Part shown: positions 4,192 through 30,500 of the stretch, piece by piece
Numbering within the stretch: position 1 is the stretch's first letter
Layout: the number at the start of each line of letters is the position of its first letter
Origin: Basidiobolus heterosporus B8920
Taxonomy: Eukaryota; Basidiobolomycota; Basidiobolomycetes; Basidiobolales; Basidiobolaceae
DNA length: 34,162 nt
Assembly: GCA_000697455.1 (NCBI GenBank)
Contig: JNET01032540.1
Location: forward strand, 1-34,162
Direction of reading: 5' to 3'
Notes under the pieces: generated by a model
Database searches by the model: none
The model's input: the letters and a program-made list of their open reading frames with translations, nothing else
Told to the model about the DNA's origin: nothing
Position numbers and translations under genes: made by a program

Positions 4192-7100
4192 CTACTGTGA
4201 ATCCTGGTCTCCCATAAAGCTCATATTGCGCAAAAAATCCATATTGCTGAACGAATCCACATCCAGATCTTCACCCAAACCAAGGTTCTCACCTTCCATG
4301 TTGTTGAAAAAACTTGAAAAATCTTCGTCCATGATGAACTGATCAATATCAATTGGATTGGATGTGGTGGATGAATCATTTGTCCCACTCGTAGGTGTTG
4401 GAGCTGTCGATGGGTTGGGTACACTAGTGGTTACGGGGGTATTGGGCATCGAAGCAGTCTATAAATTATAAACAATAAGTCAAACGCTAAACAGAAGAAA
4501 TCGAAAGTACACAGGTTTATCTTACTTGAGGTTCAGATGGTTTTTGAGCCTCAGTATTAGGAATCTGGGGACTAGAGTGGGCACTCTTCGATTGCGGTTG
4601 CTCCTTAGCTTGTGTAGGTTGCTGGGCTGGTGATGGTTTATGCACAGACTTCGGTGATGGAGTGACAGTTTTGAGTGCTTTGGGGACCTTTGGGCTTTTG
4701 GTGGGCGAGCTTTTGAGTGCTGTTGCTTCTACAGAGGCTGAATTAGCATTTGGTCCAGATGCAGTTGTAGCAGAGTTGGTGCTGGAATTAGGTTGAGTTG
4801 AGCTAGTATTGGCCCCGTTGTTAGTTCCAGTATTAGGAGGACGTATTGGTCCAGAGGCTGGTCCAGGCTTAACTTGAGTGGTAGCTGGCGATGGTGAAGA
4901 TGTCGACGGAGGATTATGTGGGGGTCCAGAGAGAGACTGCTGTTGGTGTTGAGGAGGGCGTGTGTGTCCTACGGGTTGAGGCTGGGGAGAATTACGTTGC
5001 TGCTGCTGCTGTTGTTGCTGCTGTTGTTGCTGCTGTTGTTGTTGTTGTTGTTGTTGCTGTTGCTGTTGCTGTTGCATTAACTGTTGCTGGTTTTGAGCTT
5101 GAGCCTGTTGCATCTTCTGTTGTTGCATTCGTAAGAATTGCTGTTGCATCATCATTTGAGTCATGTTTCCCACATTCCCTCCAAGCATCGCCGCATTCTG
5201 TGCACCCATCCCTCCAGCTCCACTAGCTTGTGGCCCATTCTGTCCACTCATCATCATTCGGGTTTGCTGTTGTTGCATAAGCATGCTCCTTTGTTGCAAG
5301 AATTGGATTTGCTACACGTCAAATAGAAATCTCTGGTTAGTTTCTCCTCATCCTTTCACTCCCTTCGCCACCTCACAAATAACCTGCTCCTTCCATACCT
5401 GAGGTGTTAGGTTCTGTTGCCATCCCTTCCCTAGCAGTTGTGCTTGCGCTTGTCCCGGACTTTGCCCTGCATTATTGCCTACAATCGTGAAGCTTTCGTG
5501 AGTATCTTTCCTACACTCTCCTACACTCCCCTGCACGCTTCATCTCTTCTCTCCCCCCACCCAACCATCGAAACAGCAAAATACAATATCCCACTACATA
5601 CCCATGAATTGTCCCATGTTCACATTCGGCGCTCCACTGGTTGCCGGACTACCATTGGCCCCCATGCCTTGTGCGGGATTCTGTCCCATGACTGGTGAGA
5701 ACCCAGCCATCGAAGTAGGTCCCATTGAGTTTGGTCGTGGTCTCTTCGGATCCGGTGGCGACCCTGTCTGATTCATGGACGATGCGAGTGCGTTGTTCTA
5801 CTCAGTTTTTGTTAGTGTTTGTGTGCTTGCTTTTTTTGCTTTTTTCCAACACCCTCCAACTTCCTCTTCTTCAAGATCAGTTATCTCATCTTCACTTACC
5901 ATCATTCCCGCCTGTCCTCCTTGTTGTTGTTGTTGTTGCTGCTGCTGTTGTTGCTGCATCGCCATTTGCGCGTTCTTCGCTTGTGCCATTTGAGCGGCTG
6001 TCATTCCTCCCATTCCTGGCATGTTCCTATTCCATCAAAATCTCGATTAGTCCCTGCCATGCCTAATTGCTCACCCATCCACCCACTCATTCGTGCACTT
6101 TCTCTACTCAGAATCAGACTCATGCACATGCTTATCTCTGTCACTTACCCTCCAGGTCTTTGCATTTGTGCCGCAATCTGGTGTTGAATCTCTGGCCTTT
6201 TCATCACCGACAATATCGCTTGCTAATGATAGGGAATCATTTTAGTCGCATGTAGCTATTATTGCCTTTGTCGCTCAACGAGCCCGCATTTCCCTTTCAT
6301 ATTTCCACTTACCTTCTCATTGTTGTTCAGAGTACTAGGATCTCGTCCAGCTAACCCAAGTGTCTGCATGATTTGTTGGACAATCACTGGATTTACCCCT
6401 GCTCTAATCCCTGGCCCACACGGCACCATCTGAGGTCCTTGGCCCGGCATGGGTTGGCCAGCCCCCGGTCGGTGTGCTCCATTATTCTCTCCTATTCCCA
6501 TCGCATTACCTGGTAGTTGTGCATTTGTTTGCTGTGGTGAAAAGGCATTCGCTACTCCTGGAACATTTATGCTTGGATTTGGTTGAGTGGGATTGTTGAT
6601 CACTGGTGAGTTAGACTTCGCAGTCAAATTCAATGGTAAAGAATTGATATTAGGGCTATTCAATCTATTAGTTGAGACTTGAACACACTTACCTGTGAAG
6701 TAGTTGGTTGCTGATTTTGTGTACTTGAAGGTAGATTCTGTCCAGGTTGTTGTACAGATTGTCCCATAGGTTTTTGGATCTGCGGTTGACCAAATTGAAT
6801 CCTTTGAGCTTTTAGATTCTGTGCCTAATCACCATATAATGTCCCTTTAATGTTAGAAGAATCTTGAAAGTGATCGGTTCCACGATTATATTTCATGAAA
6901 GTAAGTTTACCTCAACAAAAGATTGAGCATCTTTGCTGCCAGTTTTGTTTGTTCTTGCTGAGAAGATATCCCAAAACACCACCCACCATTCGTACAAGAA
7001 GCCGTTAGGTGAGTCTATTGGGACCTGTGAGTCACGAGCTACTTGAGCCTCGTTCATGAAAGCCTGGGCCGCACTAGTCCAGTTACGTTTTACGCAATAG

Positions 7101-7232
7101 TCATAAATATAAATGTTTAACCTAAGGTAAAAAGGAAACGCGTCAAAGAACAATCAGAAAACATCAAGGAATCCCTGAAATAATTTACATTTTGTCTCCT
7201 TCCCAGGCGTTTTTGGTAGGTGGTTGTGCCAT
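4192..7232 (-). CDS. LUFS/LisH-domain, Gln-rich transcriptional cofactor (LEUNIG/SSBP/Flo8-like), gene C
   Basis: Ten exons rebuilt on the minus strand: 7189-7232, 6911-7121, 6693-6824, 6313-6615, 6149-6222, 5900-6026, 5602-5797, 5399-5478, 4526-5311, 4192-4458; total 739 residues. Residues 1-85 form the LUFS domain (LisH helix pair plus flank). The exon-2 core with NIYIYDYCVKRNW, FLYEWWVVFWDIF and ARTN is very close to plant LEUNIG and animal SSBP proteins. The middle is rich in Gln, Asn, Pro and Met, with runs of 12 Gln (279-290) and 26 Gln (469-494). The C-terminus is acidic (IDIDQFIMDEDFSSFF, GEDLDVDSF), resembling an activation or cofactor-binding tail. In plants and animals this family bridges DNA-binding proteins to chromatin regulators in the nucleus. 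No WD40 repeats are present. The exon 3/4 junction is the least certain, because a peptide conserved in gene D falls inside the predicted intron. Confidence 0.88.
4997..5074 (-). repeat. Poly-glutamine (CAG/CAA) run in gene C exon 9
   Basis: Twenty-six consecutive Gln codons, mixed CAA and CAG, encoding residues 469-494 of gene C. A second run of 12 Gln codons is at 5921-5956. Codon mixing suggests the tract is partly stabilised against slippage. The gene D paralogue lacks both runs. Confidence 0.9.
5124..5622 (-). repeat. 499-bp inverted identical tract, copy in gene C
   Basis: Read in reverse complement, this segment is base-for-base the same as 20421-20919 (position p pairs with 26043 minus p throughout, so there is no indel). 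It covers the end of exon 7, intron 7, exon 8, intron 8 and the first part of exon 9 of gene C. Sequences outside both edges diverge at once. Confidence 0.95.
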
Positions 7233-8469
7233 GTTGATCTAATTGTTGTGAAAGGATGTTGGTGCAAATGGTGGAGTCGCGCAGTATCAAACAGCTTGAT
7301 ATGTGAACTATGCTCTTTTGAGATCACGAAAAACTCGTATCCTGTGTCTGGATAAAAGACATAAAAAATAAAGGTAAGCAGATCGTTCTGATGTGTGAAA
7401 ATGTCACCACAATATAGAGAAGGGGTTCAAGCAAAAAGGTTGAAGGGAGGTTACTTGGTTAGAGAACTTACCTTTACGATAGATACAAATAACCAAAATA
7501 GAAAGGCGATGTAGATTTCGTCCTTTGCGTTTCTGATATAGGGGCTATTGCTCTTATTATCGAACTAAGGGGATTTTCACTATACGGAGATGAAGCTTTT
7601 GTTTAGAGATCGAATCTAAACCTGAAAAGTCAAGTTGGCGATAGAACTGTGTATAACGTTCTTGGGTATACACGCTAACAGACAGAGGCAATCCCGAATA
7701 ATTCGAAGGAGAGTCAATCGAATTTACATCGCATTCAGATAATTATTTGTGAAGATTGGTATCAGTTTCCACTACGCCGATTGGTCTAACATTTTTCAGT
7801 GGGCATTATTAGTGGATAGCCCACTACAGATCGATTTCGAATTTGGTTGATAAGGACATGCTATTCATCTAATCACAATCGATATTATGGCACAAATGCA
7901 CCAAAAGCCACAACCCTAACCCTAACCCTAAACGATGATCTTGTATCCTTCAAGCGAGAAAAATGAGTCCAGGAATGGCTGCTTAACTAGGCTTAGCCTT
8001 CTTAACAAATGAACAGATGTGATCCAATTGCCCAGATTGCTTCCAACGAGATACTACGTTCTAGAATAAGTATTCAATTGAAAAACCAAACAACCTCATG
8101 AATTCCAATCCCGTTGCTGAATCGCCCCAAACAATTAGGAATTCTAACCCTCTCCTGTGATTTCACTCTAGTCCCACGCATTATAAGTAGAGTATTGGAT
8201 CATAATTGGCGCATGATTGATCGGGTCTGAAATGATAGAATAGGAACTATGGAGATGTTTACTTTATTTTTCAAATGAGAATGATAGTCCCTTGAAAGAG
8301 TGAAGGATAATGAAGTTCGTGCCTCAGGGAAGTGAAAATATCTAACAATACTTTCTCATGAAATATGAATGTTACCCATATGATATACTCTCCCTTTCAA
8401 TAATACAACCGTTTTAAAGCTATCAAAGAAAAGAATAATGCAGTAATAAAGCTGGTTTGGAGCCACATA
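7233..8469. other. Gene C upstream region and ATP1 3' flank
   Basis: 1.2 kb without a supported gene. On the minus strand a GTAAGT donor at 7471 and an acceptor at 7239, six bases before the gene C start codon, could bound a 233-nt 5' UTR intron. A telomere-like repeat is at 7912-7932. The left side carries the gene C promoter, and the right end the 3' UTR of ATP1 with a reverse-strand AATAAA at 8263-8268. Confidence 0.4.
7912..7932. repeat. Interstitial telomere-like repeat (CCCTAA)3
   Basis: Three perfect CCCTAA units flanked by AA and A. It lies in the spacer between gene C and ATP1, well inside gene-rich DNA. Such motifs also act as teloboxes in promoters of some eukaryotes. Two further CCCTAA units occur at 18962-18973 inside a Fip1 intron. 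Confidence 0.9.
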
Positions 8470-10296
8470 TTAGACGAAAGACTTGACAAATTCAGGGATG
8501 ACGGTGCGAAGTTTCTTATCAGTCTCCTCGGTAATTTGTCCGTCCTTCTTAATGGCCTCAAGAAGCTCAGGATGGTTGGAGGTCATATGGGGAAGGAAAG
8601 CACTTTCGAATTCGACAATGCGCTTAACGTCAACCTTGTCCAAGAAACCGTTGACACCAGCGAAGATGATGGCGACTTGTTGCTCGACTGGCAATGGCTT
8701 GTATTGAGGTTGTTTCAATAACTCGGTCAAACGAGCACCACGGTTGAGCAAGAACTGGGTAGAGGCATCCAAATCAGAACCGAATTGAGCAAAAGCAGCA
8801 ACTTCACGATACTGGGCCAAGAAGAGTTTTAATGAACCGGCAACTTGCTTCATAGCTTTAGTTTGGGCAGCGGAACCGACACGAGAGACGGAAATACCGA
8901 CGTTAATAGCGGGACGAATACCCTTGAAGAATAATTCAGCCTCCAAGAAGATTTGGCCATCAGTGATGGAAATAACGTTGGTGGGAATGTAGGCAGACAC
9001 ATCTCCACCTTGGGTTTCAATGATGGGAAGAGCAGTCAGGGAACCAGAACCGAAGTTCTTGTTCATCTTAGCAGCACGCTCCAAAAGTCTGGAATGAAGG
9101 TAGAAGACATCACCTGGGTAAGCCTCACGACCAGGAGGACGACGAAGCAACAGAGACATCTGACGATAGGCAACAGCTTGCTTGGACAAATCATCGAAAA
9201 CAATAAGGGCATGCTTGCCGTTATCACGGAAATATTCACCCATAGCACAGCCGGAGTAAGGGGCTAAGAATTGGAGTGGGGCAGCCTCGGAGGCGGTAGC
9301 AGCAACAACGATTGAGTACTTCATGGCATCATTTTCCTCCAAGGTCTTGACAAATTGAGCCACGGTAGATCTCTTTTGGCCAATAGCAACATATACACAG
9401 TACAGTTTCTTGGATTCGTCGTCACCATCATTCCACTTTCTTTGATTAAGAATGGTATCAAGGGCAACGGCAGTTTTACCGGTTTGACGATCACCAATAA
9501 TCAACTCACGTTGACCACGACCGATAGGGAGCATAGAGTCAATAGACTTCATACCAGTTTGCATAGGTTCGTGTACGGACTGACGAGGAATAATACCAGG
9601 TGCCTTGACTTGTACACGTTGACGGGTTGCTCCAGGAATGGGGCCCTTTCCATCAATAGGGTTACCAAGGGCATCAACAACACGACCGAGTAAGCCTTCA
9701 CCGGTAGGAACGTCAACAATGTTACCAGTACGCTTAACAGTATCACCTTCCTTGATTAAACGATCGTTACCGAAAACGACGATACCGACATTGTCTGGTT
9801 CCAAGTTAAGGGCCATGCCCTGAACACCAGAAGAGAATTCAACCATCTCTTCGGCTTGAACGTTCTTAAGACCATATACACGAGCGATACCGTCACCAAC
9901 GGAAAGGACACGACCAGTTTCGTTGATATCAGAAGAGTCGGATAAACCGAGAATACGTTCCTCAAGAATGGAGGATACTTCAGAAGTTGCTGTCAAAACC
10001 AAGTTAGCTACCACTTTTCTATTCTGTTGCACTTTAATAAAAACATACTAGGTTTGGCGCCAGCAGTCATCATAGAGCTGGAAGAGAACAATCTGGCGGT
10101 CATGGAGAGGGCACCAACATTGTGGCGAGCCTATAATATTTAGTTAGAATTATGGCGTATAACGTTGGCTAGACTATCCACGTTGACCGTACGAAGAGGT
10201 AGATATAAAATAGGAAGTTGTGATACTTACAATAGAAGCAGCGCTACGAGCAAGAGTTTGACGAGCAGCCACACGTAGTAAAGTGTTTCTAATCAT
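8470..10296 (-). CDS. ATP1: Mitochondrial F1Fo ATP synthase subunit alpha
   Basis: Three exons on the minus strand, 10231-10296, 10049-10130 and 8470-9989, giving 555 residues (yeast 545, human 553). Introns are 100 and 59 nt with CTAAC branch sites. The second intron runs past two nearer AG dinucleotides to GACAG at 9990; this joins a presequence ending AKP to [13 protein letters not shown], matching the yeast and human mature start. The first 45 or so residues are a mitochondrial presequence rich in Arg, Ser and Ala. The P-loop GDRQTGKT is at residues 215-222, in the non-catalytic nucleotide site typical of alpha subunits. Other family blocks present are [28 protein letters not shown] and the [10 protein letters not shown] segment. 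The protein forms the alpha3beta3 head of complex V in the matrix. Confidence 0.99.
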
Positions 10297-10737
10297 TTTT
10301 ACCTAACCGAGGGAAGTGAAAACGAGGGAATTAAACCAACGGGACAAGGTTAAGTGGTCGATTTACAATTACAATGTGGGGCAGAAATTTTTATAAAGAG
10401 ACTGGGTCTACTACACCAATTCCCCATCTACTGGCCATTAACTCACCCTTGATCTCACCTAGGCATTTCGCAGATCTACCTTGATTGGTCATTTTATCCC
10501 CACCATTTAAGCATCCTTATGGGGCTTTCACCGGGCTTTCAACGAAATTCCAACGATGTATAACATAACCTTATAACAAATGCAAAAGCAGTCGTACACT
10601 TTTATCATTTTGCATATTATATGCCAATATTTTGACTCCGCTTAATAAGGGACAAGTGGAAGAATGCTAGTCTGGAACAGTGGTGGTAAGTTTATTTGAA
10701 TGTTGAGTGGGATAAAATAATGCTAATTATTTAAGAA
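10297..10737. other. ATP1 promoter and cyclophilin 3' flank
   Basis: Spacer between two minus-strand genes. It should contain the ATP1 promoter and 5' UTR and the cyclophilin 3' UTR. No gene, RNA or clear motif was recognised. Confidence 0.45.
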
Positions 10738-11767
10738 TTATTCTTTGACCTCGCCGCAATCAGTGATTTCGATCTTGTTCTGTATATATATATCGGTTAT
10801 AGAGTAATTTCGAAGTGTCAGTCAGGAATTCAGTCCAGATTACGAGGAAATCACTACGTACCTTTGTGGCGCCAGAGGTAGATCCTTCGGCTTCGATTTT
10901 AGTCAGAGTTTCGTTTCCTTCACTCAATTGACCAAAAACTAGTGCAACAAACTCAGGCATTTATCGAGATAAGACGTGTATTAAAATAATTACTTACCGA
11001 CGTGATGGTCGTTGAGCCATGGGGTATCTTGGAAACAAATGAAGAATTGGCTTCCATTAGTATTCTAAGATAAAAGTTCAAGTTAGTTTGCACTATGGTA
11101 TATTACGAATTGGAGCATTGACACTTACTTTGCCAGCATTAGCCATACTCAATATTCCCTAAATTATATTGTAATTGTTAGCTATTCATATAGAGCATGC
11201 AAAAAGTGAACTGAGTAGGTACCCTGCCAGTGTGTTTGAGAGTGAAATTTTCGCTATTAACGAATGTACAATGAGTATTGACAAACGAGCTATACATCGT
11301 GAATTATGAAACATACTCGGCGAACTTGTTGCCGTAAATTGATTCACCGCCACGTCCATCACCTCGAGTGAAATCTGTAAAGGAAGTAAGTAAAAGAAGA
11401 TTTTTCATGAAATACTACGCTTTACTTACCACCACCTTGAGCCATGAAGCCAGGGATCACGCGGTGGCTGTGTTAATAGCGTAGAGTTAGCAACCACTGT
11501 GGCAAATACGACCTAATGAAAGACTTACAAAATACTGTTTTTGAAGTGAAGTGGGACACCAGAAAGTCCCTTTCCTTTCTCACCAGTGCTAATTTTTCGA
11601 GAAAAGCTGTTAAAAGAAGAACAAATTTTTAACGGAAATATTATGAAGTACCATAAGGCTCTGAAGTTTTCGGCAGTCTTGGGGACAGTATCCGAAAAAA
11701 GTTTGAATACCATACGTCCGGCGGGCTTGCCAGCAATTGCAACCTCCATGAATACTTTAGGGTTCAT
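10738..11767 (-). CDS. CPR1: Cyclophilin A-type peptidyl-prolyl cis-trans isomerase
   Basis: Nine exons on the minus strand: 11652-11767, 11529-11588, 11430-11467, 11317-11374, 11223-11253, 11129-11158, 10998-11064, 10862-10938, 10738-10779; 172 residues, the normal size of cytosolic cyclophilin A. All eight introns are 55 to 82 nt with standard GT-AG ends. The active site is intact: Arg61, Phe66, Met67 and Gln69 in [12 protein letters not shown], and Trp127 in DTPWLNDHH (the cyclosporin-contacting Trp of CypA). The loop [19 protein letters not shown] is the version found in plant and fungal cyclophilins. No signal peptide or extra domain is present, so the protein is probably cytosolic or nuclear. 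It is divergent from bL19m over a 404-bp shared upstream region. Two exons are only 30 and 31 bases. Confidence 0.98.
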
Positions 11768-12171
11768 TTTTGTTTAATACGATTTCACTGTTGGTAGAGA
11801 ATGACAAGATATAATGAAGCTCATAGCATTAAGTAATAAATTTTTATCCAGCTAAAATTGGTGCCTACTTGCTGATTGGACTAGATCAAATCTTTGAAAA
11901 GTATATGCAATGAGAGTGAATATTTCGAGATGAAGTGAATGTGAGAGGTGATTTAAATTATTTCAAGCATGAACTAAATATCAATCTCAATAGAACTTAA
12001 TATTAAGATTGTTTCGATATTTTACATTGGTGGGGTTTCTAAAGAGAAATTTACAAATTTTGATCCAAATTGCAAGGCGAGACAGATGAAATTTTTGCTT
12101 TTTTACGTTAGCAAAGTAGCTATCTCTGTGGTGTTCTGCTCTGTTGTTCTATTTACACGAGATATTCAGAT
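11768..12171. promoter_or_regulatory. Bidirectional promoter region between cyclophilin and bL19m
   Basis: 404 bases between two divergent start codons, AT-rich. Both promoters and 5' UTRs must lie here. I see no clear TATA box or known operator. Confidence 0.5.
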
Positions 12172-12902
12172 ATGTTCCTAGCCAATAGCCTAAAAAATTC
12201 TTTGACAAAGTCATTCCAATCAGTTGGTGCACGTTGCTTCAGCAATTCTCGCTCTATTCTTGGTGAGTCAAGTTTCTATTTAACAATATTTCTCCTTCGC
12301 ATCTGGCAGACCTACATGCCAGATTCGTTCAATTTCTTTTTAAAGAAGGATTCTGTACATGTTTCAGATATATGTATCAACACTTCTTTATGTCTTATTC
12401 TTACTAATTGACTCTTTCAGGCCTCGCCAAGTATGAGGTTCCTGAGCACGTAATTGTCCCCGAGAAACAATTTCAAGCACCTTCCTTGAAAGGAAAAAAC
12501 ATTATGGAAGTTATCAAACGTGAAGGTATCGAGCGTGCCGATTTGGATAAACGTACCCACATGTTCCGTGCTAACGGAAAGGATCGTGTTCGCCCCGGGT
12601 CTGTTCTTTTAGTCGAGACTTATAATGCTAAATCCAAAGACGCAGTATCATCCTTCATGGGTGTTTTGATTGCCATTCGTCGTAAAGGCATTGACTCGTC
12701 TATTACTCTGCGTAACATTATACTGAAGGTCGGAGTAGAGCAAAGATTTTCCATTTATTCACCACTCGTGAAGTCCATTCAGGTGCTTAAGGTGGGTGAA
12801 GGATTCAGAAGAGCCAAACTATACTACCTTAGAAACCAACCTGGAAAGGCCTTCAAGCTCAAGGGTCTCAGGAAAAGAAGTACAGATCGCTTGGGAAACT
12901 AA
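12172..12902 (+). CDS. IMG1: Mitochondrial large-subunit ribosomal protein bL19m
   Basis: Two exons, 12172-12262 and 12421-12902, separated by a 158-nt intron (donor GTGAGT, acceptor TTTCAG, branch TACTAAT); 190 residues. Residues 1-30 are a basic, Ser-rich mitochondrial presequence (NSLKNSLTKSFQSVGARCF). The rest is the L19 fold, recognisable by the pattern PGSVLLVETYN...FMGVLIAIRRKGIDSSITLRN and by VEQRFSIYSPLVKSIQVL, then YYLRNQPGKAFKLKG near the C-terminus. bL19 lies at the interface between ribosomal subunits. The length is typical of fungal mitochondrial homologues. Confidence 0.95.
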
Positions 12903-13886
12903 CGTTGTTAGATTAAGCATGGCCTATCCAATATTCACTCAGTTAGCGGATTTATCAATTTTCTTTAAGCTAGTTGGAATTGACCATAAGCATTATCACG
13001 TATATCTTTGATAGACCCTCTCACACAGCAGGCTCATCTTCGAAGCAGATTATTTGAATTCATCCATTCATTTATATTAGAAACATTTCAACTCATTAAA
13101 CAACAAACAAGCAGATTGTAATGAATTTTTATTGTACCTAATTAGCACCACAAATCTTAGTTATCGGAGTTTAGTACGAGTGACTTGATTTCCTAAGCAA
13201 CAAACTGGATTAATCAAAACTATATGATGTATCTGCATTCAATACTAGGTTAACGATGGTCATTGTCTTCTGAAGCTTACAACAATACAGGCGAAGAAAG
13301 AAGACGAAGGAAAACAAGGTTTGAATACGCCATGAATATATGCTAATCCGCATATAGAGAACCACCACTGCTCCGAAGCCAATAATATACATGTGGCATA
13401 ATACTGATTTCCCTTTTCGTGACAATCGAGTGAGATCATTTTCGAATATAGCCACCAGATACGTATGCCTGATGGTAGCCATGAACATTACCTTTTACAT
13501 TAGGGAATAATAGGAAAATGCAGTCAAATGATTACAAGATATGATGTACGCATATGAATACAAATTTACTTTTTAATTAAGTTGAGAAGGGGTTTCTGCC
13601 TCGTATAGCTAATTTGGTCTCTAGGCCATTTCAACCCCGATTCTAGGTGGTGGAAATGCATTAAGATCATTCGTCCGTCAGGCAAATACATCGCTGGAGG
13701 TTAGGGTTGGTTTGCGTTTGCATCAATCATTAGGATTAATGCCCAGTAAATTTTTACTTAATTCCCCTAATAGACCAAATACAATTCTAACTACTTCCTA
13801 AAACAATTAAAGTCAAGAACGTTAACCTTGCACTGCTTGGATATATTTCTACAACATTTCTATTTTTTGTATACCTCTTATCGAAC
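12903..13886. other. Intergenic region with one doubtful minus-strand ORF
   Basis: About 1 kb between bL19m and the PP2A subunit, AT-rich. A minus-strand frame at 13210-13488 (92 residues, ATG start) contains two hydrophobic stretches that could span a membrane, but I recognise no family and see no supporting splice or codon pattern, so it is not called as a gene. A TTAGGG-like motif is at 13701-13706. The right end is the PP2A subunit promoter. Confidence 0.35.
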
Positions 13887-15853
13887 ATGACTGAGAATGA
13901 CGGTGGATGGAGATTTGCTCAATGCTTTGGTGATAAAGGGGAGGTTGAAGATATTTCTGAAGGTAATTAGTGAATTTTGTCTATTTGTGTTTAAAGTTCG
14001 GGTTCTACAGTTCAGAATTTTTCGTAGAACTCATACAGTTGTACTGTCACTTTGTAATGTTGCTATATATATATATATATATCTCGCCGTATTTACATAC
14101 CCCCAATACATACTAGTTATACAATAGTAACGTTATTTGCCTCTCTATAGTTGATATCATTTCAACAGTAGAATTCGATCACACTGGCAATTATCTTGCG
14201 ACTGGAGATAGAGGAGGCAGGGTTGTGCTATTCGAGAGAAACGATGGCGTAAACATGTTTTCTTTTATTTAACCTAGTCAAGCATACAGTCTAAATACCT
14301 ATTCGTAAATATAGAAAAAAGGCTGCGAATATAAATTCCATACGGAGTTCCAGTCTCACGAACCTGAATTCGACTACTTAAAAAGTTTGGAAATCGAAGA
14401 AAGGATTAATAAAATCAGATGGTGCAAACGCCAGAACTCTGCGCATTTTCTGTTATCAACAAATGGTATGGTTCATTTTTATTATTGTCTTGCAAAAGCG
14501 GCATTCGAATCGAATGAAAAGCAAACACTACCATAATCCTTCCCCTCCACACATATAGATAAAACGATCAAGTTGTGGAAAGTTTTTGAGAAATCTCTCA
14601 AAGTTGTTTCTGAAAGAAATGTACCCCACGGGATGAATCGCCCTCTTTTAAGCAACAACTCGCTCAAACTTCCTAAGCTTACCCACCATGACACTATTGT
14701 TGCCGCTGTACCTCGGAAAATCTATTCCAATGCTCATGCCTATCACATCAACTCTATTTCCATGAACTCGGATGGCGAGACCTATCTCTCAGGAGATGAT
14801 CTCAGAATCAATCTATGGAATTTAGATATCAGTGATCAAAGCTTCAGTATCCTTTTTTGGTGACAGACAACTGCCAACAAGAGTAAAGTCAGTCATAACA
14901 TCCTTGACTAACCTTCACAGATATTGTTGATATTAAGCCAGCTAATATGGAGGAACTGACCGAAGTCATTACTGCTTCCGAGTTTCATCCTTCTCATTGC
15001 AACATGTTTATGTATAGTAGTAGCAAAGGCTCCATAAAGCTATGCGATATGCGAGAAGCAGCTTTATGTGATCGCTATGCCAAAAGTAACAAGCCTTCTA
15101 CAATTTTCTGGAGAGATGGTGATTACTAATCGTTTTCTTTCTAATTCTTGTTGCGTAGTGTTTGAAGAAGAGGAAGATCCAAGCAGCAGGTCGTTTTTCT
15201 CTGAAATCATCTCTTCTATTTCGGATGTGAAATTTAGCACCGATGGCCGTTACATATTGTCTCGCGACTACCTAACCTTGAAGATCTGGGATATCAATAT
15301 GGATAGCAAACCAGTTGAGACCATTAATGTTCATGACTATCTTCGAAGCAAGCTATGCGATCTTTACGAAAACGATTGTATTTTCGATAAATTCGAATGC
15401 AATATGAGCGGAGATGGAAAGTATCCTTTTTTGATCCGTTTTATCTGTGAGCAGTTCCTCAAACCGTGCCATGCTTGTTTGTCTCCTTGATTCAGGCTTT
15501 TACAATAGCTCCATTCTAACAGGCTCTTATAGCAACTACTTCCATATCTTTGATGCGAAAAACAAGAGTGAAGTAACTCTACAGGCGGATAAAAGTGCTT
15601 TCAAAGCTAAGCGCATTGGCTCCACTAAAAATAAGTTGTCATTTGGACGCTCTAGTAAAAATGGTAGAAAGGAGATTAATCCAGATATGATGGAGTTCAA
15701 CAAGAAGATTCTTCACACCTCATGGCATCCGAGAGAAAATACTATTGCAGTTGCAGCAACGAATAATCTCTTTATTTTCTCGTAAGTTCACAAGAGTACG
15801 GTTTGATGTTATTGAGGCTAATGAACTTTGACCATTGTAGACAAACTTATTAA
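13887..15853 (+). CDS. CDC55: PP2A regulatory subunit B (PR55/Cdc55 family)
   Basis: Eight exons: 13887-13962, 14151-14248, 14315-14465, 14559-14846, 14921-15085, 15159-15420, 15509-15781, 15841-15853; 441 residues (human PPP2R2A 447). The protein is a seven-bladed WD40 propeller that recruits substrates to protein phosphatase 2A. Diagnostic blocks are [79 protein letters not shown] and [16 protein letters not shown], all nearly the same as in animals and yeast. The acceptor of exon 7 was placed at 15508 rather than the nearer CAG, because only this keeps the frame into [15 protein letters not shown]. The last exon adds only four residues. Intron 1 (188 nt) contains a TA microsatellite. Confidence 0.97.
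14064..14082. repeat. TA microsatellite in CDC55 intron 1
   Basis: About nine TA units in the longest intron of the PP2A B subunit gene. It has no sign of function. Confidence 0.8.
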
Positions 15854-16312
15854 GCAATTAGTTGATAGCCCGTTTCTTGAGAAACCATACACCATATATC
15901 ACCTACGGAGTCATATTTCCTTATTAATTGTTTGATTCTTGAGTCATACCAGTAATTTCTTTTCATGCGCATTTTAAAGTAAGTAACTCCATATGTTCGT
16001 GATGGTTTGATAGTTCGTAGAACATATGGTTTATACTTCAAATATCATGTCTGCTTCAACATGCAAATCCTGTAAATTGTTTGAGAAATACAATTGCTTA
16101 TTTTTCTTACCCAATTTCAATCTGATTTATCCAAGAAAATACGAAATCGTTTCATCATATTATTATACATGAATGATCATTTTTTTCTGAGCCTTGTCAA
16201 TTGTTGGGCTGATCCAATCAATCAAGAATTATGAACAATTCTCAAAATTTCATTTTCACGGTAACATTTATAGATTTGATAATGCTATGTGACCTTAGAT
16301 TCTTTGATACCG
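15854..16312. other. Spacer between CDC55 and FIP1
   Basis: AT-rich spacer holding the CDC55 3' UTR and the FIP1 promoter. A 63-codon minus-strand frame at 15850-16041 overlaps the CDC55 stop and looks like chance. Confidence 0.45.
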
Positions 16313-19094
16313 ATGTCAAACAGCGCGTCTGGAAAATACATGGAAGAAGACGATCTAGACGATTTCTTGTACGGTGATTCTGCCAACGGTACAGCTATTG
16401 GTAATATATGCACGTGTTTGTATATCTTTGCCAAGACAATCATTCATTAACTACTTGTATTTTTAGGATCTGCACAAAACGAAAATAATGGTTTGTAGCA
16501 TTTGTTTAATATTTGCTTCTCTTTTTTCTTTGGACTACTTTTTTTACTTGTGTATTACTTTCGTTTTTCAAACATCTTACAGAATTAAATAAACTCATTG
16601 TTTTCTTTTAAATACCCACAAATAGAAGACGATTATTATGAACTATATGGTGGCAAAGAAGAGACAAGGTTGGAGCTGTTACTATTCTTTTTTGTTCTTT
16701 CCTGTTCTATTTGCGGGTTATCTAACTTTCGTGTAACAAGTGTAAATACCTCACAGGGGGACGAGCAGCATAAGATTGACATAGATAATACCATCGTAGA
16801 CGATGACGTCGATTATGGTGACGATAATGAAGAAGACAATCAAGAGGAAGAAAAGAACAATGAAGCTGATGCTGACGGTGATGAGGATGAAGACAGTGAT
16901 TCCGTTAGTAAATCATAACCAATGCCCAATGCTATTAAATAGGTTTCTGACACTCTATTAGGATATCGAGTTTGTCACAGAAATGCCCGAAGATGAGAAT
17001 CACGATGGGGAAGGCAGGTATGGATATTTTTTGACTGAATGAAGAAACTCTTTCTTTAGAGAATATATGTTCATCCTACCTACCTAAAGGCGAAACTCAC
17101 TTGTCAATATCAAGCCCAATCAATACCAGAAAAATACCAACTCTTCTGGCAACAACCAAGGTGACTGATTTTGTTTGTTTTACTTGTCGACAATCTGACT
17201 TACATATATATATTCATCGCTGATCCAGACGGAACACAACAAGCCACCGCTGCTAATCGTCCTGGAGGAATCGATATTAACGCTGTCGGTGAAATAGAAG
17301 GACAGAGTATATTCGAAGTTGATCTTGATTCGTTCGAAGATAAGCCTTGGAGAAAACCAGGTATGAATCGAAGAGTAATGGAATAGACCGTGTTCTCGAA
17401 AACTAAAATATCGCTGATACTTAAGGTGCTGATCTTACGGACTATTTTAATTACGGCTTTAATGAATATACTTGGAGGCTCTATTGTTCAAAGCAAAAGC
17501 AGATGAGAGAAGATCAATTCTTGCGCAAAAGAATTAACGTATGAAACACGGCTATGGTTTAGGATGTCATCCGCATTATATTATAAGAAACTTACATCAT
17601 ATTTCACTTCAAGGTGTACGAATCTAAACCCGATATGATGGGTGATATGCCACCAGACATGCCACCTTTTGGTGGCCCAATGTTTGATATGCCGCCCCAT
17701 GGACCTGGCCCATTCAGATTCCCACCTTCTCCTGCTCAGAGAATGAGTAAGTATTGCTTTACAATGTCAATTTGAGATACCATCCTTACAGTATTCAATC
17801 GATAGTGCGTAGACCAGGGGATCAAGAAGAATCGTCCGCTATTCAAGTAGTTTCTAGTGATCGAGAAAATATGGGCGAAAAGTAAGAATCCCTCCTTAAA
17901 TTGAATCCGTGTCAAGTACTAACTATTTTATAGTGATATGCCTGGTCGTATGAGACCGGATTTTATGAACCCAGAACGCTTTCCAAATAATTTCCCTGTA
18001 CCACCGCCAATGCCTATGGGCATGTTCCCTCCGGTTATTTCTTTTTTACCACTTTTTTCATTTTCACTGAAACTCATTTTTGTTGCTTTTGAATTGTAGG
18101 ACATGGTCCCACCTGGTGCAATGCCCCCTTCGATGTTCATGGGAGGACCAGACATGGGCCCTCCAGGTCCACTGGTTTATGATCCTGGTTTCCGTGGTGG
18201 CAGAGGTCGAGGGATGATCCGGCCCAACCAACCTATGATTAGAGGAACTCTACGAGGAAGAGGTCGAGGAAACATGTCACCCAAAGATGACAAATTATCA
18301 AATCCAAATGAAGAGCATCATCGTCGGTTTATTGATTTTTTATATTGGCGATGAGAATAGTATTGTAACCGTGTGTTTGTATTTTAGCGCGAGAGGGTGA
18401 TATGAGCAACAATAATGCTAACATGAATAACAACAAGATGCCCAGTATGAATAGAGGTCCTGGTGGACCTCATATGAACCCAGGTGTGATGAGAGAGCGC
18501 AATGCACCACCCTCTGGTCGTCCCGGAGGATTTGAACCAAGTGACCCTCCTAGCTCAGATCGCCGCAGAAGGTTTTTACTCGAATATTGTCGTCTAGTTG
18601 GCGTCTAAGCTTATAATCTTATCTTTATCATTAGCAATTCTCAAACTTCAGATAGAGTGACTGATCATGGAGATGATGAGAGACATGATAAACATTTCAA
18701 GGATGATAGAGAGCGAAACAGAGACAGAGATCGATCTGATCGTCATCGCGACAAGTCGAGCCGAGAAAAGGATTCAAAAGTACAATACACAATCTTCAAT
18801 TTCTATGCTATCCAAGACTGACATTGATGTGATATTATCCAGGATCGGTGGTCTAAACGGGAAGAGACTCGCTCGAAAGAGAGTAGTCGAGACAGTGGAA
18901 GAGATAGAGATAATGATCGTGATAGGCATGATGACCGTGGCTCAAGAGACAGGTAATCTAGCCCTAACCCTAACTTTGAGTAATTTATGAATTTTTAACT
19001 CATCCATGGTAGCAAATCAAGTAGGAAACGGATCTACGACTCAAGAGATGACGATGACAATCATCGTCGTTCTACGTCAAAAAGAAGACACTAA
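16313..19094 (+). CDS. FIP1: Pre-mRNA 3'-end processing factor Fip1 (FIP1L1-like)
   Basis: Sixteen exons: 16313-16400, 16467-16490, 16626-16668, 16741-16903, 16962-17017, 17090-17160, 17229-17360, 17426-17538, 17614-17746, 17806-17881, 17934-18033, 18100-18322, 18388-18571, 18635-18779, 18843-18952, 19013-19094; 580 residues (human FIP1L1 594). The N-terminus is acidic ([12 protein letters not shown] and later runs of Asp/Glu), as in the poly(A)-polymerase-binding part of Fip1. The family signature [20 protein letters not shown] lies at about residues 186-205. A Pro/Met/Gly-rich middle with RGG-like GRGRG repeats follows, and the C-terminus is a long Arg/Asp/Glu/Ser mixed-charge tail like that of animal FIP1L1, ending in RRH. 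The protein links poly(A) polymerase to CPSF on U-rich RNA in the nucleus. The least certain junctions are the donors at 16668 and 18322 and the acceptor at 17089. Confidence 0.92.
18962..18973. repeat. Telomere-like (CCCTAA)2 inside FIP1 intron 15
   Basis: Two CCCTAA units in the 60-nt last intron of FIP1, just after the donor. The sequence supplies CTAAC motifs but sits too far from the acceptor to be the usual branch site. Confidence 0.7.
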
Positions 19095-19869
19095 ATTCTG
19101 TGCATCTCGATAATATCACACCATTCCCTACTTCGTAAATTTATTTTGGAATAATTCCGAAACTTGTTAAACAAGGCCTAAAGTTATATAACTGAGTTCA
19201 TGGCATGATGGCTCGCAGCCGCAAGAACACCTTCGTGGTTGTACACGTTTTTGCTTAACTTTTTTTGATCGTTGTCTATTTAACATGTAGTTTCTTAGCT
19301 GTTTTTAGATATTAAATTCAATATATTCATGTTCGATCTTGAAATTTTTCACATTCAGAGGCTTCGAACCAACATACCTCAAGCGAATTTAAGAGTTTGA
19401 TTCTTTGCACAACATCATAACTTTGAGGATTAGCCTGACAGTTATATGGACGAATGTGATACTATCTTTTTTATGGAACACACAATAATATATCATATAC
19501 ATCCCTTCATTTATTACCCTTCCAGCCCAAATATCTACTGGTATCAATTTGAGTTCTTACCTACAATTACTTGAGATTCGTATTCTAGTTCATTTAATTG
19601 GGGAATATCCAATATTAGTTTAATAAGCTTGTATTGAACTACTAAACAGAACTGTATACTTGTTATTTGTAAGGTTATCATAGGAAGCCTTCATAAAAAT
19701 ATACCGAAACTTTACCTTCACTGTAGTTTATAACGACAATTTTTCTGACATGGAACCTTAGTTCTTTATCCCTGGAGCATAGTAAACAAGCCTGAACTAC
19801 TGTTACACCTACAAGTGTACGAATTCTACAAATTCCCAGTCTTTCAACAAATACAAATTGTTGCTCATT
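19095..19869. other. Spacer between FIP1 and gene D
   Basis: AT-rich spacer with the FIP1 3' UTR and any promoter of gene D. A 79-codon minus-strand frame (19678-19917) overlaps gene D exon 1 and has no recognisable similarity. A GGTTCGAAGCC-like box on the minus strand near 19367 was checked for a tRNA and does not fold as one. Confidence 0.4.
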
Positions 19870-19970
19870 ATGGCTCAACAATCGACAAAAAACGTGTGGG
19901 AGAGTGATAAATTGCATTTTAAAGCTCTATTGAGTTAATAATATTTTTTGTATTTTAACACAAGTTTCAA

Positions 19971-19984
19971 TATATATATATATA
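19971..19984. repeat. TA microsatellite in gene D exon 2
   Basis: Seven TA units encoding the YIYIY part of the LUFS domain. Given the acceptor at 19964, one TA unit fewer would restore the reading phase used in gene C. Confidence 0.8.
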
Positions 19985-20420
19985 CGACTACGGCCTAAAA
20001 CGCAACTGGACCAACGCAGCACAAACCTTGCTGACTGAAGCTCAGGTTGCTAGTGATTCTGTTGTTCTTATTGATTCTTCCCTTGGCTTTTTATATGAAT
20101 GGTGGGTGGTGTTTTTGGACATATTCTCAACAAAAAACAATAAGGCTGGCAGCAAAGATGTGCAATCATTTATAGAAGTATGTAAACCTCAAGCAGATAC
20201 ACTCTTGTATCGAAGCGTTTCAATTTTCACCAGATAATTTATTCCTCAAACTCAATTAATAAGGGACTGAGTTTGAAAGTGGAAAAAAATATTTGGGTGC
20301 AACAGCCTGGTCAAACTCTATCTGCTGTCTCGCAAAATCAGCAGGCAACTACTTCTCACATGGGTAAACCACAAAATCCAACCAATAGTATAAACAGTCC
20401 CAGTATCAATTCCCTTCGGC

Positions 20421-20919
20421 TGAACATGGGACAATTCATGGGTATGTAGTGGGATATTGTATTTTGCTGTTTCGATGGTTGGGTGGGGGGAGAGAAGAGA
20501 TGAAGCGTGCAGGGGAGTGTAGGAGAGTGTAGGAAAGATACTCACGAAAGCTTCACGATTGTAGGCAATAATGCAGGGCAAAGTCCGGGACAAGCGCAAG
20601 CACAACTGCTAGGGAAGGGATGGCAACAGAACCTAACACCTCAGGTATGGAAGGAGCAGGTTATTTGTGAGGTGGCGAAGGGAGTGAAAGGATGAGGAGA
20701 AACTAACCAGAGATTTCTATTTGACGTGTAGCAAATCCAATTCTTGCAACAAAGGAGCATGCTTATGCAACAACAGCAAACCCGAATGATGATGAGTGGA
20801 CAGAATGGGCCACAAGCTAGTGGAGCTGGAGGGATGGGTGCACAGAATGCGGCGATGCTTGGAGGGAATGTGGGAAACATGACTCAAATGATGATGCAAC
20901 AGCAATTCTTACGAATGCA
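20421..20919 (+). repeat. 499-bp inverted identical tract, copy in gene D
   Basis: Identical to the reverse complement of 5124-5622, including two complete introns (123 and 87 nt). On the left it joins a stretch that aligns with gene C exon 4, so the material corresponding to the rest of exon 4, exons 5 and 6 and most of exon 7 is missing here. On the right it ends in ACGAATGCA, after which the Gln-rich sequence differs from C. Confidence 0.95.
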
Positions 20920-23502
20920 GCAAAAACAGTCACAACAATGTCAAATGACACCCGATTTTCAGAATCAGCTGAATCCAACTCTCAAGTAGCAATTATCAAG
21001 TAATGGCGCATTGCAAAATAGCCAAAAAATACCCTAAAAAAACACTCATTTCAGGCTTGTCCGTTAGCGATGCTTCTAATAACAATGACTCTCAAAGCCA
21101 ACCTTCAAAATTACTAGACATCAATCAGCTCAAGAATGACGATTTTAACAAATTCTTTACAAACGATGATACTCGCGAGGACAGTACAGAGCTCAATGAT
21201 AGAAAGAGTATAAACTATTTTGGTAATATGGATTTCTTCTCCGACGTGGACTTTAACGAGAGCACAGGTAATTATACACCTTTCGGCCGCAGTCAATGTC
21301 ATCAATTACCCTCATCATAACCTTTAACATCATTGCTGATACCTCTCTTCTACAATAGAAAGCCAACCAGCAGTGCAATCAAGCGTCCAAGTGCTAGAAC
21401 TACTCGCTCGATTAACTGGACACTTCATCAAAGTTAGTACCTGTGCTATATCAAACAATGGAGAATTGTTGGCAAGTGCGAGCGTGACAAAAAAGTAATA
21501 CCAATAATGAAGATGTCAGTGGCATCCAATAATCAAACCATTAACTAATAGGTAATAATCTGGCCGATACCAAGTAAATCAAAGATATGAATGCTTGATG
21601 GGCATACCGAGTAAATAACCAACGCCAGATTCAGCCCAGATGATCGCCAATTTTTGGCCACTGCATCCTGAATGTGGGCACATATGACAAATTTGATTGC
21701 GTCACAACATTTGTTAGTCACACAAGATCAGTCACAGCAGTGGATTTCTGTACAATGGCTGGTAGTGACAGCTGTTGCTCAGTGGATACTGAAGGAGAAT
21801 TGAAAGCTTGGAACATCCACTCTGGAGTATACGAAAAGATCATTCAACTAGTGAGCCAACATTTATATATTGTTTTAACCCTAATATCTAGCTCTAGTCC
21901 TGCAACATTCAGTGTCTCAAAATACTGTGGGTACTCTTCCAATCCTGTCTATTACAACCCACAAATAGGATTGAAGGTTGCTGTCACCATTTCCAATTAT
22001 GTTGATGTTTTTACTTGTGAAGATGACTCCTTAGTCTCGAATCACTACTACGCAAATCTTCACTACACCACATAACAAAAATATATTTGCCCTGGATTGG
22101 ACCTCAGATAGCTCTTTTCCTTTGACTACCTCAGAGGATCACACGTGTGTGTGGGATACGTATACATTCATTCAAAATTATATATAGCCAACAGTCCCAG
22201 ACTAGAAAGATAACTAGCAGTTGTTTTCTTGCCAAAGACACACAAATCGTGGAAAATAAGCCATGTGGAGTTGCTATCGGGGAATACGAAACTATTTATA
22301 TATGGACTTTCGATGGCGAAGTGAGACCGAAAGCTGTCCCCGGCGCCCAGAATGGAGTAGTTTCTTGTTTGACCAGTAGTTGTACAAAAAACTCGGACTT
22401 GTTGTTGGCCAGTGCCTCTAGCTCGAAGGAGGAAAATCTCAAGACATGGAAAATCAGAATTGCAACGTAGCCATTGATTTTTTACCTTTACATTGCCTAA
22501 TTCTGCGTATTTTCATTGTTGATATACTGGTTTTGATTGTGTTTTTTTTATGTCAAGCTTTGCCAACTTTGATACCTTCGCGTTTCCTATCTTACATGTT
22601 CGGCCATTTCTTATGATTGGCACTTATTTCTAACTCGATTTCCACTCTAGGCCTTCACCCCATATTTACATACTTCACTTTCATACATTGCTAAATAAGT
22701 ATACCCTTTTACTAGTTTTGTCATCATACCATCAAGCAAATTAAGACAACCTCAATCATAGCTTAATTCATCTATTCGTATCTCAGCGGGTCAAATCGTG
22801 AAGAGCTACCAACACATCCGCACTCTTTTGAATTAAGTATGTTTTCCAAAATATAGGCGAGAATATTGGCATGAACAAATTAATACATCGGTTGCCTTAT
22901 TTACTACTTATCGATAATGCGTTGATGTTCTCGTTTGTAAGATTTTAAGTTACCGATTTGTTCTTTTATAAAGCACCGCCATTGAAGTCAGTTGGAATGA
23001 GTGATGGCTAGAGTTACTTATGGATAGAGATAATCTAATTATATCGGAGAATGCCCGAAAAGCTGGGAGAATTGATAGTGCAAAAAATTCCGTTCCAGAT
23101 CTTCATCCAGGTTGTTTCCTTTGGAAAATTTTTCGTGTTTCCTAAAGTAGGCACCAGCAACATGTACGATTTCCATGGAAATCTACATCTGGCCCTCGTG
23201 CTTGAATTTCTTGCCAATTCCACACCAATAATAACATCAAATCCTTAACGAGTCTAGAAATCAACAAGTTCTAGTTCTAGGCTACCCTGTAAATCCTGGT
23301 AATGCGGCACCCCTATTGGTTCAATCATCTATAGTAATATCCGAAATTGCCTTGAAACGTCAGCATCCTTAAAGCATCTGCTACTACTATTAAGTAAATC
23401 ATATGGATATTCCGCTGGATTCTACAACATTCCTCCACAGATCATAGCCCTGAAGACCACACGACATAGCACGACACAGCATCAGTCATTCGGTTCCATG
23501 CT

Positions 23503-24147: not shown

Positions 24148-24255
24148 GAGGCTTCATTCCCAAGACACGTAACCATTTCTTTTAGCTTTCCCTTTCTTCA
24201 TAAGCTTGTTCCCTAGTTATCTCTGTGTAATTAGAGTCAATTATTGGTTATAGAA

Positions 24256-27060: not shown

Positions 27061-27514
27061 TGTAAAAACTCACCAAATATTACACCTGTCATATCCCCAG
27101 TGCTCATTTCAAAACAATAGATCCAACACTCAATGTATAGGAATTTTTATTCTCTACGATTAATACAATAAATATTCTATCCTAAATATTAGAAATTATT
27201 GATCAAGATTGATAATTCTGGTAGGGTTTTTGATTTCTATCTGAGTTCCTGGAATTTTGCTGTCCGAGATTGGTGAAGGGATTTACAAGGAGTATGATCA
27301 CCGATTAATTTTCGAACAATTTATTAAGAATCATGAATTCAATTAGAATCCTCCCAAGGGTAAGTGAACAGATCAGAAATAAGCTGTCACGCATATTTGT
27401 AAATCATTTACCTATTAGTTACTTTCTGAACTAATAATCTAGTTCGCTTTACTACCCAAGGAACTATTAGATTTTGGTTGAGATACGTGTTCTGTGTCTG
27501 TTTCTTTGACTCAC
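27061..27514. other. Spacer and 5' leader of the FYVE-RING gene
   Basis: Contains the PFK1 3' UTR and the promoter of the next gene. A GTAAGT donor at 27360 and acceptor TCTAG at 27441 could be a 5' UTR intron of about 80 nt. An ATG at 27333 upstream of it would make a short spliced upstream ORF ending just before the main start. This is inferred from splice motifs only. Confidence 0.35.
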
Positions 27515-30500
27515 ATGGATACTTTCACTGAGAATTCTACCACTTCTACTCCTGATGAGCTTCATAGCACTGTCACATTTTCTGGGAATGATGAACTTTT
27601 AACGCGTCAGGAAACTATTGACAATGATTCGTTTGCCGATGATACCAATCTCGTGGACAACTCTGAACCATTATCAAGTTGCCAACGTGATAGTGTTGAG
27701 TTACCTAAACTCAAGCTTGGAGCGGATGAGGGAACAGTGTTAAATACCATAGTTAGCGTTACACCTACACAAGATGATACAACAGAGGGCTCAACTAAAC
27801 AAGAAATACTTGAGGATCCGTCAGCTGAACTTGCTGAAGACGTAAAATCCTTATCTAACAAATCTCTTCAAGAGGGTCAACTAACTGCTGATACCCCGAG
27901 CGAATTAGTTGGATTATCCCAGACTGTTACACTAGACGAGTCTTCGGATGCTGCTTCACATTTAGATGACTTAGCCTCAAAAATTACTTCGAATTTTTAC
28001 GCTACCGCAGAGAGTGGAGACGCGAATGCGTTGTTTGAAATATTAAACCAACTTACTCAAGAGACCAACGCATTACCAAAAGACCTTGTAAATACCCCTT
28101 CCACTTTTACCGGCTTGACCGTATTACATTATGCAGCATCTAGAGGTCATTTGACCCTTGTCGAATATCTTATAGATACTGGTGCGGAGGTTGATATGGT
28201 GGATAGAGAAGGAGAAGTAAGTAAACACATTTACTAAATCGAAAACCAACACTTACTAAAACTTCTATTTCTATTTTGAAATTGAAGACGGCTTTGTTAA
28301 AGGCGGCTTTCAATGGTCACTTGAACGTGGTCAAGCACTTAAGCAATAATCAAGCATTTGTACATCATAAGGATAATGATGGTTGTACTGCATTGCATAA
28401 TGCTTGCTCCAGTGGTTGTTTAGGAGTAGTCAAATGGCTGTTGGAGAATACTACAGTTGACGTAAACGTAAGAAACAAAATGAATCACACACCGTTGAGT
28501 ACGCTCGTCCATTTTCCCTCTTCGATTTGTAACGCAAACTAAAGATATCATATGTTTAGTGAATGCGGCATCTAGAGGATTCCTAAATATTGTGAACTAT
28601 CTGGTGAATGAGGCCAACGCAGACCCTTCAATCAAAAATGATTTTGGTGAAAAGGCGTATGATGTTGCAGCAGCTAGAATGGAGGCACAAATATGTGAAT
28701 TGCTGGATGAAATGGAAAAAATTACTCAAGGTAAATGAAGGGTAAATTATTTGTTACGAATTTGTCATAACACAACATCGTGTCGGTAGTCAACTACGAT
28801 ACTATTCAAGATCACCAAACGGTATTAATGATACTGTACGAAAATCAGCAAGCTCCTCAAAGTCTTCTTTCCCGCTTGGCATCACCCCGATTTTCTCTCG
28901 GCTCACTATCGGAAGGTGGGGCTCGCTCATGGACCCTGGTAAATGGTAGACCAAGCTCCAAAGAGGCCATTCAATTACCAGCTGCAAACAGTGAATCTTC
29001 TACAGAAGAAGAATGGTTTTGGTTGACCGATTGGCAGATAGACCTGAAGCATAGCCAAGTAGATTCCGAGGAGGGGTGGCAATACGCCTATTCCTTCGAT
29101 GCGCTTCAAAACCAATGGTACAGATCACCGCCTGGTGCCGGTTTAAGCAGTAACTGGGTCAGAAGGAGAAGGTGGATTCGAGTTATGAAGCGCAAACTAA
29201 GTTCTGGCGAGCACAGCCAAGAGGTCATTTCTGATGGTATCGAAGGTAGCACCGTACCCTCATCTGCTTATTTGGAGCCAGGTGATTCTTCTCATCTAGC
29301 TCGAGGATCCAACGTTATCGCTATCCAGAACGGTGATAATCTTGGTAAAATACCTTTGAATTTAGTGCATACCTCCAAGATTTATTAATTGTCGAGCCTT
29401 TAGATTATTCTAGCTCTAACCATCTTCGAGATGAATCTCGGACTAGTCGCAGCCTACAAAATACCGACATAAATCTTCATTTAGACACAGGTATTACGGT
29501 CTTGTGGTGGTCAATATAATATGAGCTGAGCTTTAACCAAGTATTGTTTATTTAGAAAGCGAATTCCGTCGACCATCTTCTACCAATCGGTCACTAGCCA
29601 GATCCAACACGGTGTCAGTTATGGGTGGTGCTCATCTACGACAAACGTCGAATGTATCGTCTTTGAATACCGACTCCACAGCGGGCATATCTCCGTCATT
29701 GCTGCAAGTGCTTAACTCATCCTCAGCTCGCCTTCTCCCACTTTCTCCATCCTTGTGGGAGTCTGATGAAGATGCGCCAGACTGCCGTCAATGTGGGCGC
29801 AAATTTATGATATTCCTTCGTCGTCATCATTGCCGGTAAGGAGATAAATTCTATCCATTTTGTAATCAACCAATAACTCAAGCCGAACCTTCTGCCTATC
29901 GTGTGTATATAGTCGATGTGGTCTCGTGTTTTGTGATAGATGTACATCCTCTCGATTTCCGTTTCCTGTTCCCTCTCCAGCGGAAGATAACTTCACTATC
30001 TCTTACCAACGTGTGTGTGACACGTGCTTAGCATTGTTGAATTCCTTGCCAAAAAGTGCAAACCCATTGATGAATTCTTCATTGATGAGTCGAACGAATA
30101 GCCAAGCCAGTTTGATGAATGAGTGTCCTGTTTGCTTTACGCCCCTACAATCAATATCTACAGAAAGAGGGGCTCAAGAACGACATGTACAAGAATGCTT
30201 AGAAACCAGAGAATTCAGCACTTCTCCAAAGGGATCGAGATCTTTGAGTAAGGGCACATATTTACTGAAATAACGAAAATACATGATTATGTAATTGAAC
30301 TTTCATTTATGATTCCAGATTTCAAACTCAAAGAAGACTCCAATCTTTTGGGACAAGAATGCCCGATATGCTTCGAAGAATTTGCGTTAGGTATGTATTT
30401 TAATGATTCCAAAAGTCTCAAACCTACCTAACCAGCACACATGTTTTAGACGAAACCATCGCCAGGCTTACTTGTCTTTGTACCTATCACCAGGAGTGTA

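Follow-up and report, generated by a model that had tools for sequence, protein, structure and literature searches.

The window analysed here is an entire contig of 34,162 bases from Basidiobolus heterosporus, in which two related genes, C and D, lie in opposite orientations. Gene C (4192-7232, minus strand) is predicted from the exon model, Pfam scans and protein comparison to encode a Gln-rich LUFS/LisH protein and has 10 exons in the model. A LisH match (Pfam, E 1.7e-7) falls in exon 2, the LUFS exon, and the gene is co-linear with the B. meristosporus protein P0121; both are devoid of WD40 repeats. In particular, the C-terminal repeats of a LEUNIG-type protein were not found in gene C, whose end resembles that of P0121 and whose last exon had no Pfam match. 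The exon 3/4 junction stays in frame only if the intron there measures 77 nt (6692-6616) or 161 nt, a 28-nt intron at this place having been rejected as it yields stop codons. Since the frame depends on one of these two introns, gene C is described as apparently intact, and it is presumably functional.

Gene D (19870-22470, plus strand) comprises a LUFS part, a tract shared with gene C and a WD40 part, and matched the B. ranarum proteins P0122 and P0133 in tblastn and genome searches. Both the LUFS part and the WD40 part were detected in D by tblastn, and the deposited model of P0122 is without a LUFS start. Judged from its reading frames, D descends from a WD40-bearing gene and has decayed to a pseudogene. 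Its LUFS exon (19962-20180, plus strand; frames, exon model and tblastn) loses the frame of D exon 1 when splice sites homologous to those of C are used (GC at 19914, GT in C); an alternative GC-AG site would preserve the frame, and this first-intron lesion is therefore graded as likely. The WD40 part (21355-22455, plus strand; tblastn and genome search) contains an in-frame TGA at 21588 and TAA at 21612, both within codons of D aligned to P0122, and its frame breaks near 21668, 22046 and 22170, at places where an intron would not fit. Of the four matches between D and P0122 beyond the tract, three are 53-59% identical and the fourth, which spans introns, is 34% identical; P0122 and P0133, both from B. 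ranarum, share 79% identity over residues 380-784. The Pfam scans assigned no family to 4 of 8 pieces in one set and 3 of 9 in another and gave no match for three D pieces (the LUFS exon and two WD40 pieces), so the WD40 label of D relies on its likeness to P0122 and P0133. The sequence-only reading of this DNA had presented D as a diverged paralogue of C; the divergence stands, but D has to be regarded as a decayed pseudogene, with two stops and three frame breaks relative to the B. ranarum proteins.

Positions 5124-5622 are the reverse complement of 20421-20919 over 499/499 bases with no indel, and base-by-base extension evidenced that the identity ends immediately on either side; the BLAST version of the tract is 4 bases longer (5120-5622) and includes 1 mismatch. 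According to the exact identity and the exon model, the C copy (5124-5622, minus strand) covers the end of exon 7, a whole intron, exon 8, another whole intron and the start of exon 9, the complete introns measuring 123 nt (5601-5479) and 87 nt (5398-5312). The D copy (20421-20919, plus strand) is identical, displays the same open frames and GT/AG introns, and is located about 15,000 bases from the C copy in inverted orientation. When the window was compared with itself by BLAST, the tract pair was the only near-identical inverted match among those listed. Hence the perfect 499-bp inverted identity that had been claimed, together with its coverage of exons and two whole introns, was reproduced by BLAST, by base-by-base extension and by the exon model of gene C.

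The tract occupies two places, and no third, in the 8.1-Mb, 428-contig assembly searched, counts that are lower bounds. The assembly is probably partial: all 21 contigs inspected (21/21) exceed 10 kb, and an estimate of 350 Mb has been published for the haploid B. ranarum genome (PMC3281927). As a control, repeats of 100 bp or longer with an identity of 95% or more were sought in a further 20 stretches of 10 kb, taken from 20 of the 428 contigs of this assembly. Such repeats were held by 1 of the 20 stretches, in the form of two direct pairs (399 bp at 98.2% and 168 bp at 95.2%), neither of them perfect; this control is rough, since 10-kb stretches are blind to repeats 15 kb apart.

Apart from the tract, the best match between C and D (BLAST) is a 207-bp block of the LUFS exon with 72% identity, in which 36/43 synonymous and 22/164 nonsynonymous sites differ (Nei-Gojobori counts), pS being 0.84 and thus near-saturated. 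These site counts indicate that C and D form an old pair that was long under selection, and a perfect tract within old paralogues argues that the tract was copied recently. Its two copies show 0 differences, which sets the 95% upper bound of their divergence at about 0.6% (3/499). At 72% identity the chance of 499 consecutive matches is near 1e-71 (0.72^499), so chance is no explanation for the identity. Two features by which interlocus gene conversion is recognized were both found in the tract, near-identity within clearly diverged paralogues and identity that extends to unconstrained sequence (the introns). The wide divergence outside the tract, even in the LUFS exon, had been anticipated from the sequence, and so had recent copying in preference to selection on the protein; the LUFS-block counts and the identical introns support both.

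The borders of the tract are less simple. The left flank in D (20281-20420, plus strand) aligns to C 6755-6641, that is exons 3-4, with a score of 81 (best of 200 shuffles, 43), and not to C from 5623 onwards. The tract starts at C 5622, and about 1.0 kb of C is without counterpart in D at this edge; further left, D 20181-20280 gave no alignment to C (p about 0.18). The right flank (20920-21060, plus strand) displayed no significant alignment to C either (score 36; p about 0.18) and is rich in Gln codons at the junction, such codons opening the right flank in both C and D. In D no stop interrupts the reading frame at either edge; a TAG follows at 20987-20989, about 70 bases beyond the right one. 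The first tract bases, TGAA, recur (by eye) in C exon 4 at the corresponding position. On these alignments the left edge appears to be a deletion or a non-homologous join, and a short-homology join at TGAA or an older deletion in D that limited the homology would explain it equally well. Because the tract ends outside significant C-D alignment, the name homology-guided templated repair applies as well as gene conversion. Ectopic conversion or templated repair had been proposed beforehand, and recent copying holds; the left tract end, however, is not at a homologous place, D running on there into a stretch whose homologue in C is about 1 kb distant.

The tract was probably transferred by recent, non-reciprocal, homology-guided copying (interlocus gene conversion or templated break repair) of 499 bp, introns included, from C into an already decayed D. 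The last copy most likely ran in this direction, mainly on the observation that D is broken outside the tract and intact inside it, and in this respect the sequence-only reading is supported. If D had decayed after the copy, damage would be expected in the tract, which is undamaged; with a decayed D as donor, lesions should be seen in C, and an intact block with working splice sites would hardly come from a broken D. The tract itself retains an unbroken frame and two intact introns, and its peptide matches P0122 at 86/95 residues. The GC content of the tract is 0.477, compared with 0.502 and 0.500 in the C flanks and 0.37 and 0.39 in the D flanks, and whole-flank GC thus agrees, weakly, with D as the recent recipient. 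At third positions GC is 0.45 in the tract, 0.54, 0.39 and 0.46 in C exons 7, 9 and 10, 0.39 in the D LUFS block and 0.39-0.45 in the three usable D WD40 pieces (one of four D pieces being left out); as these ranges overlap, composition is a weak test of direction.

An older layer is suggested by the residues of C itself. Informative residues, which exclude gapped columns and sites where C matches neither or both proteins, were scored as D-like (P0122) or C-like (P0121), and the D-like:C-like counts were 7:9 at residues 305-373, 26:1 in the tract, 3:11 at 469-528, 10:23 at 529-649 and 4:30 at 650-756. Fisher's tests gave 1.7e-4 for the part before versus the tract and 1.3e-12 for the tract versus the part after, values that are rough given non-independent sites and a low-complexity region. 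Consistently, the tract peptide of C, so close to P0122, matches P0121 at 60/93 residues. The analysis used P0121 and P0122 of 12 protein-search matches and P0122 and P0133 of 120 matches listed (2,971 found), with P0134 left out; the deposited model of P0122 starts at about C residue 313 and that of P0133 after the tract, earlier parts being outside the comparison. The phosphofructokinase (PFK) of the window (24235-27060) shares 87.6% identity with B. ranarum P0001 and 89.7% with B. meristosporus P0002, these two being 87.3% identical to each other. The remaining PFK matches reach at most 62% among the 120 matches listed; one gene is a thin basis for species distances. Since PFK places the three species at roughly equal distances from one another, the C block is read as D-type through an older D-to-C exchange. 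This comparison suggests that such an exchange may have taken place while D still worked, before the recent C-to-D patch. The last C-to-D step is well supported, the older D-to-C step moderately. A single copy of C into D, as formerly envisaged, accordingly accounts for the last direction but not for the D-like state of the C block itself (26/27 informative residues), which points to an older opposite exchange. A complete two-way course can be put forward only tentatively: a segment of the WD40 gene D would have passed to C, selection would have kept the block there while D died, and the block would then have been copied back to the dead D, in which it was the part that had kept enough similarity for pairing; nearly identical edges would have served on both occasions.

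Several other courses were weighed against copying from C into a decayed D. That the recent event was reversed, with D donating the 499 bp to C and decaying later, is improbable: although the C block is D-type (26:1), although its D-like run starts at residue 379, near the tract start at 374, and extends to about 485, beyond the tract end at 468, and although PFK equidistance means that orthology alone cannot explain 91% versus 65% tract identity, later decay should have struck the tract, and two stops and three frame breaks lie beyond it with 0/499 differences inside. Moreover, the residue evidence fits an older transfer from D to C with a recent one from C to D after it. An intact second D-type copy outside the searched contigs could also have been the donor. 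Searches of the assembly with the D flanks recovered only D itself and the LUFS block of C, or D itself, a weak result in an assembly that looks partial and whose contigs seem to be truncated at 10 kb; with P0122, 13 of 19 matches lay in the window contig, the other 6 being WD40-part matches at 26-32% on four other contigs, and with P0121 all matches (10/10) lay in the window contig. A further proposal concerns the older layer only and is compatible with the recent C-to-D copy: conversion of C into D would have occurred inside B. ranarum, and the C gene of B. meristosporus would have diverged in the block. It is rather doubtful, since an additional event would be required, along with excess change in B. 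meristosporus C concentrated on the block, yet it gains from the fact that neither a B. ranarum C protein nor a B. meristosporus D protein that could polarise the block was found among the matches listed (12; 120 of 2,971; about 8,000 most word-sharing candidates scored), and from the absence of the tract block from the 133 other proteins compared (of 251, few of them LUFS proteins), the best match being 18 residues with E 0.37.

Of a different nature is the possibility that the identity was generated in the laboratory or in the assembly, either by merging short reads of two similar but non-identical blocks or by placing a C piece in D, through the assembler or through amplification template switching. 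Usual short reads are shorter than 499 bp, so the tract exceeds their span, and the pair comes from one contig of a fragmentary assembly (428 contigs, 8.1 Mb). In addition, a Basidiobolus study describes two of its genomes as 'more fragmented, Illumina-only' (PMC7466969), the present strain not necessarily being one of them. An artefact is still considered unlikely, as the coding frame is open across both D edges, C sequence is absent from either D flank, the block precedes the WD40 part in the same order in the B. ranarum WD40 protein, and D without the tract was not found in the searched contigs using the D flanks and P0122 as queries. Of the two, an assembly step that placed a C piece in D is the less likely, and the merging of near-identical blocks would itself presuppose an earlier copy nearly as young. 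Selection on protein or RNA that holds both copies alike can be given practically no weight: the introns and synonymous sites are as perfectly identical as the protein, D is broken outside the tract, 36/43 synonymous sites of the LUFS block have changed, and no support for it was found, the window being without an Rfam match at the gathering threshold. An RNA gene was set aside on the same Rfam result and for want of a tRNA. A retrocopy (processed pseudogene) was rejected because both copies contain two identical introns, and a mobile element because many dispersed copies would be expected and only two places were found in the searched, probably partial, assembly. Wrong pairing of gene halves, by inversion between repeats in assembly or recombination, is disfavoured by the unbroken match of both C ends to P0121 and by the D lesions on either side of the tract, of which the left one is only likely.

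Copying from C into the decayed D may have proceeded as follows. A break would have occurred in D, and the D end within the run of Gln codons would have paired with C (one-ended pairing). Synthesis would then have copied C from about 5124 to 5622, and the new strand would have been rejoined to the upstream remnant of D in the exon 3/4 region, either through the putative TGAA microhomology, about 1 kb of D being lost, or at the border of an older deletion where homology to C ended.

The case most likely belongs to interlocus gene conversion, an already well-known kind of event, conversion between duplicated genes (interlocus, ectopic or non-allelic) being textbook knowledge (PMC3924815). The case shares with such conversion a perfect tract with introns in diverged linked paralogues and one apparently intact donor, and differs in a left edge where the two genes are unaligned. 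In Schizosaccharomyces pombe, wtf pseudogenes altered by non-allelic conversion have been described (PMC11497594), likewise fungal paralogues in which a pseudogene receives a piece of another copy; wtf, however, is a large, fast-changing family followed in many isolates, whereas C and D are one pair in one genome and D is still broken elsewhere. In mammalian cells, gene conversion was reported to terminate non-canonically through microhomology-mediated joining (PMC5104497); there, as proposed here, copying from a homologous donor ends in non-homologous sequence with few matching bases at the join. That work relied on a long-tract reporter in mammalian cells, while the present course is derived from one natural sequence, the left edge of which an older D deletion would explain equally well.

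The locus offers a clean case of copying between paralogues in inverted orientation, in a fungal genus of early divergence; the introns serve as a neutral clock, and the recipient is a dead gene. It also calls for caution, as a pristine, recently pasted stretch in a pseudogene can mislead both phylogeny and the prediction of genes. Should the two-way history be true, an earlier conversion would have created the homology used by later ones, and the intact paralogue would act as a refuge that re-seeds the pseudogene.

Proteins with a LUFS domain include plant LEUNIG and fungal Flo8/Som1 (PMC12643531, PMC4631450), and a LEUNIG-like protein with LisH and WD40 domains (P0124) was among the 12 protein-search matches. 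In common with such proteins, C has LisH in its LUFS exon, and D has a LUFS exon with pieces matching the WD40 part of P0122; unlike LEUNIG, C is without a WD40 part, and it is set beside Flo8/Som1 by domain only. P0122 and the B. ranarum PFK are found on contigs of equal size (41,677), as would be expected if D lies close to PFK in both fungi.

The D gene bearing WD40 repeats is broken in the window (19870-22470), while two copies of it, the WD40 proteins P0122 and P0133, are present in Basidiobolus ranarum, and no B. meristosporus protein was found among the matches listed in the protein search (the best 120 of 2,971). The WD40-bearing D gene may be in the course of being lost in parts of the genus.

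In gene C, the reading frame at the junction between exons 3 and 4 is kept by an intron of 77 nt (6692-6616, ending in AAG) or by one of 161 nt (ending in CAG), whereas the remaining modelled introns of this gene have TAG at their 3' end. The segment removed under either of these introns looks as if it had been coding sequence for a long time, because the differences between C and D within it, compared by eye, fall mainly at third codon positions. The gene also contains a long CAA/CAG run encoding poly-Gln at 4990-5080, near the edge of the tract shared with D, and a second run of this type in exon 6 (near 5921-5960).

Among the control stretches from the same assembly, L023 (contig C5) contains a 399-bp direct repeat (5092-5490 and 9602-10000) with 98.2% identity, which is possibly another recent copy.

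Elsewhere in the window, the exon pieces at 14315-15785 look like a protein phosphatase 2A regulatory subunit of the B55 type; a Pfam scan of one of them (14315-14536) found no family. Short telomere-like CCCTAA/TTAGGG repeats occur internally in the contig, at 7914-7931 and about 18961-18974. The region 24235-28738 encodes phosphofructokinase followed by an ankyrin-repeat gene, and both kinds of domain are found within a single model of 1,185 aa in B. meristosporus (P0002), which is probably a fused gene prediction.
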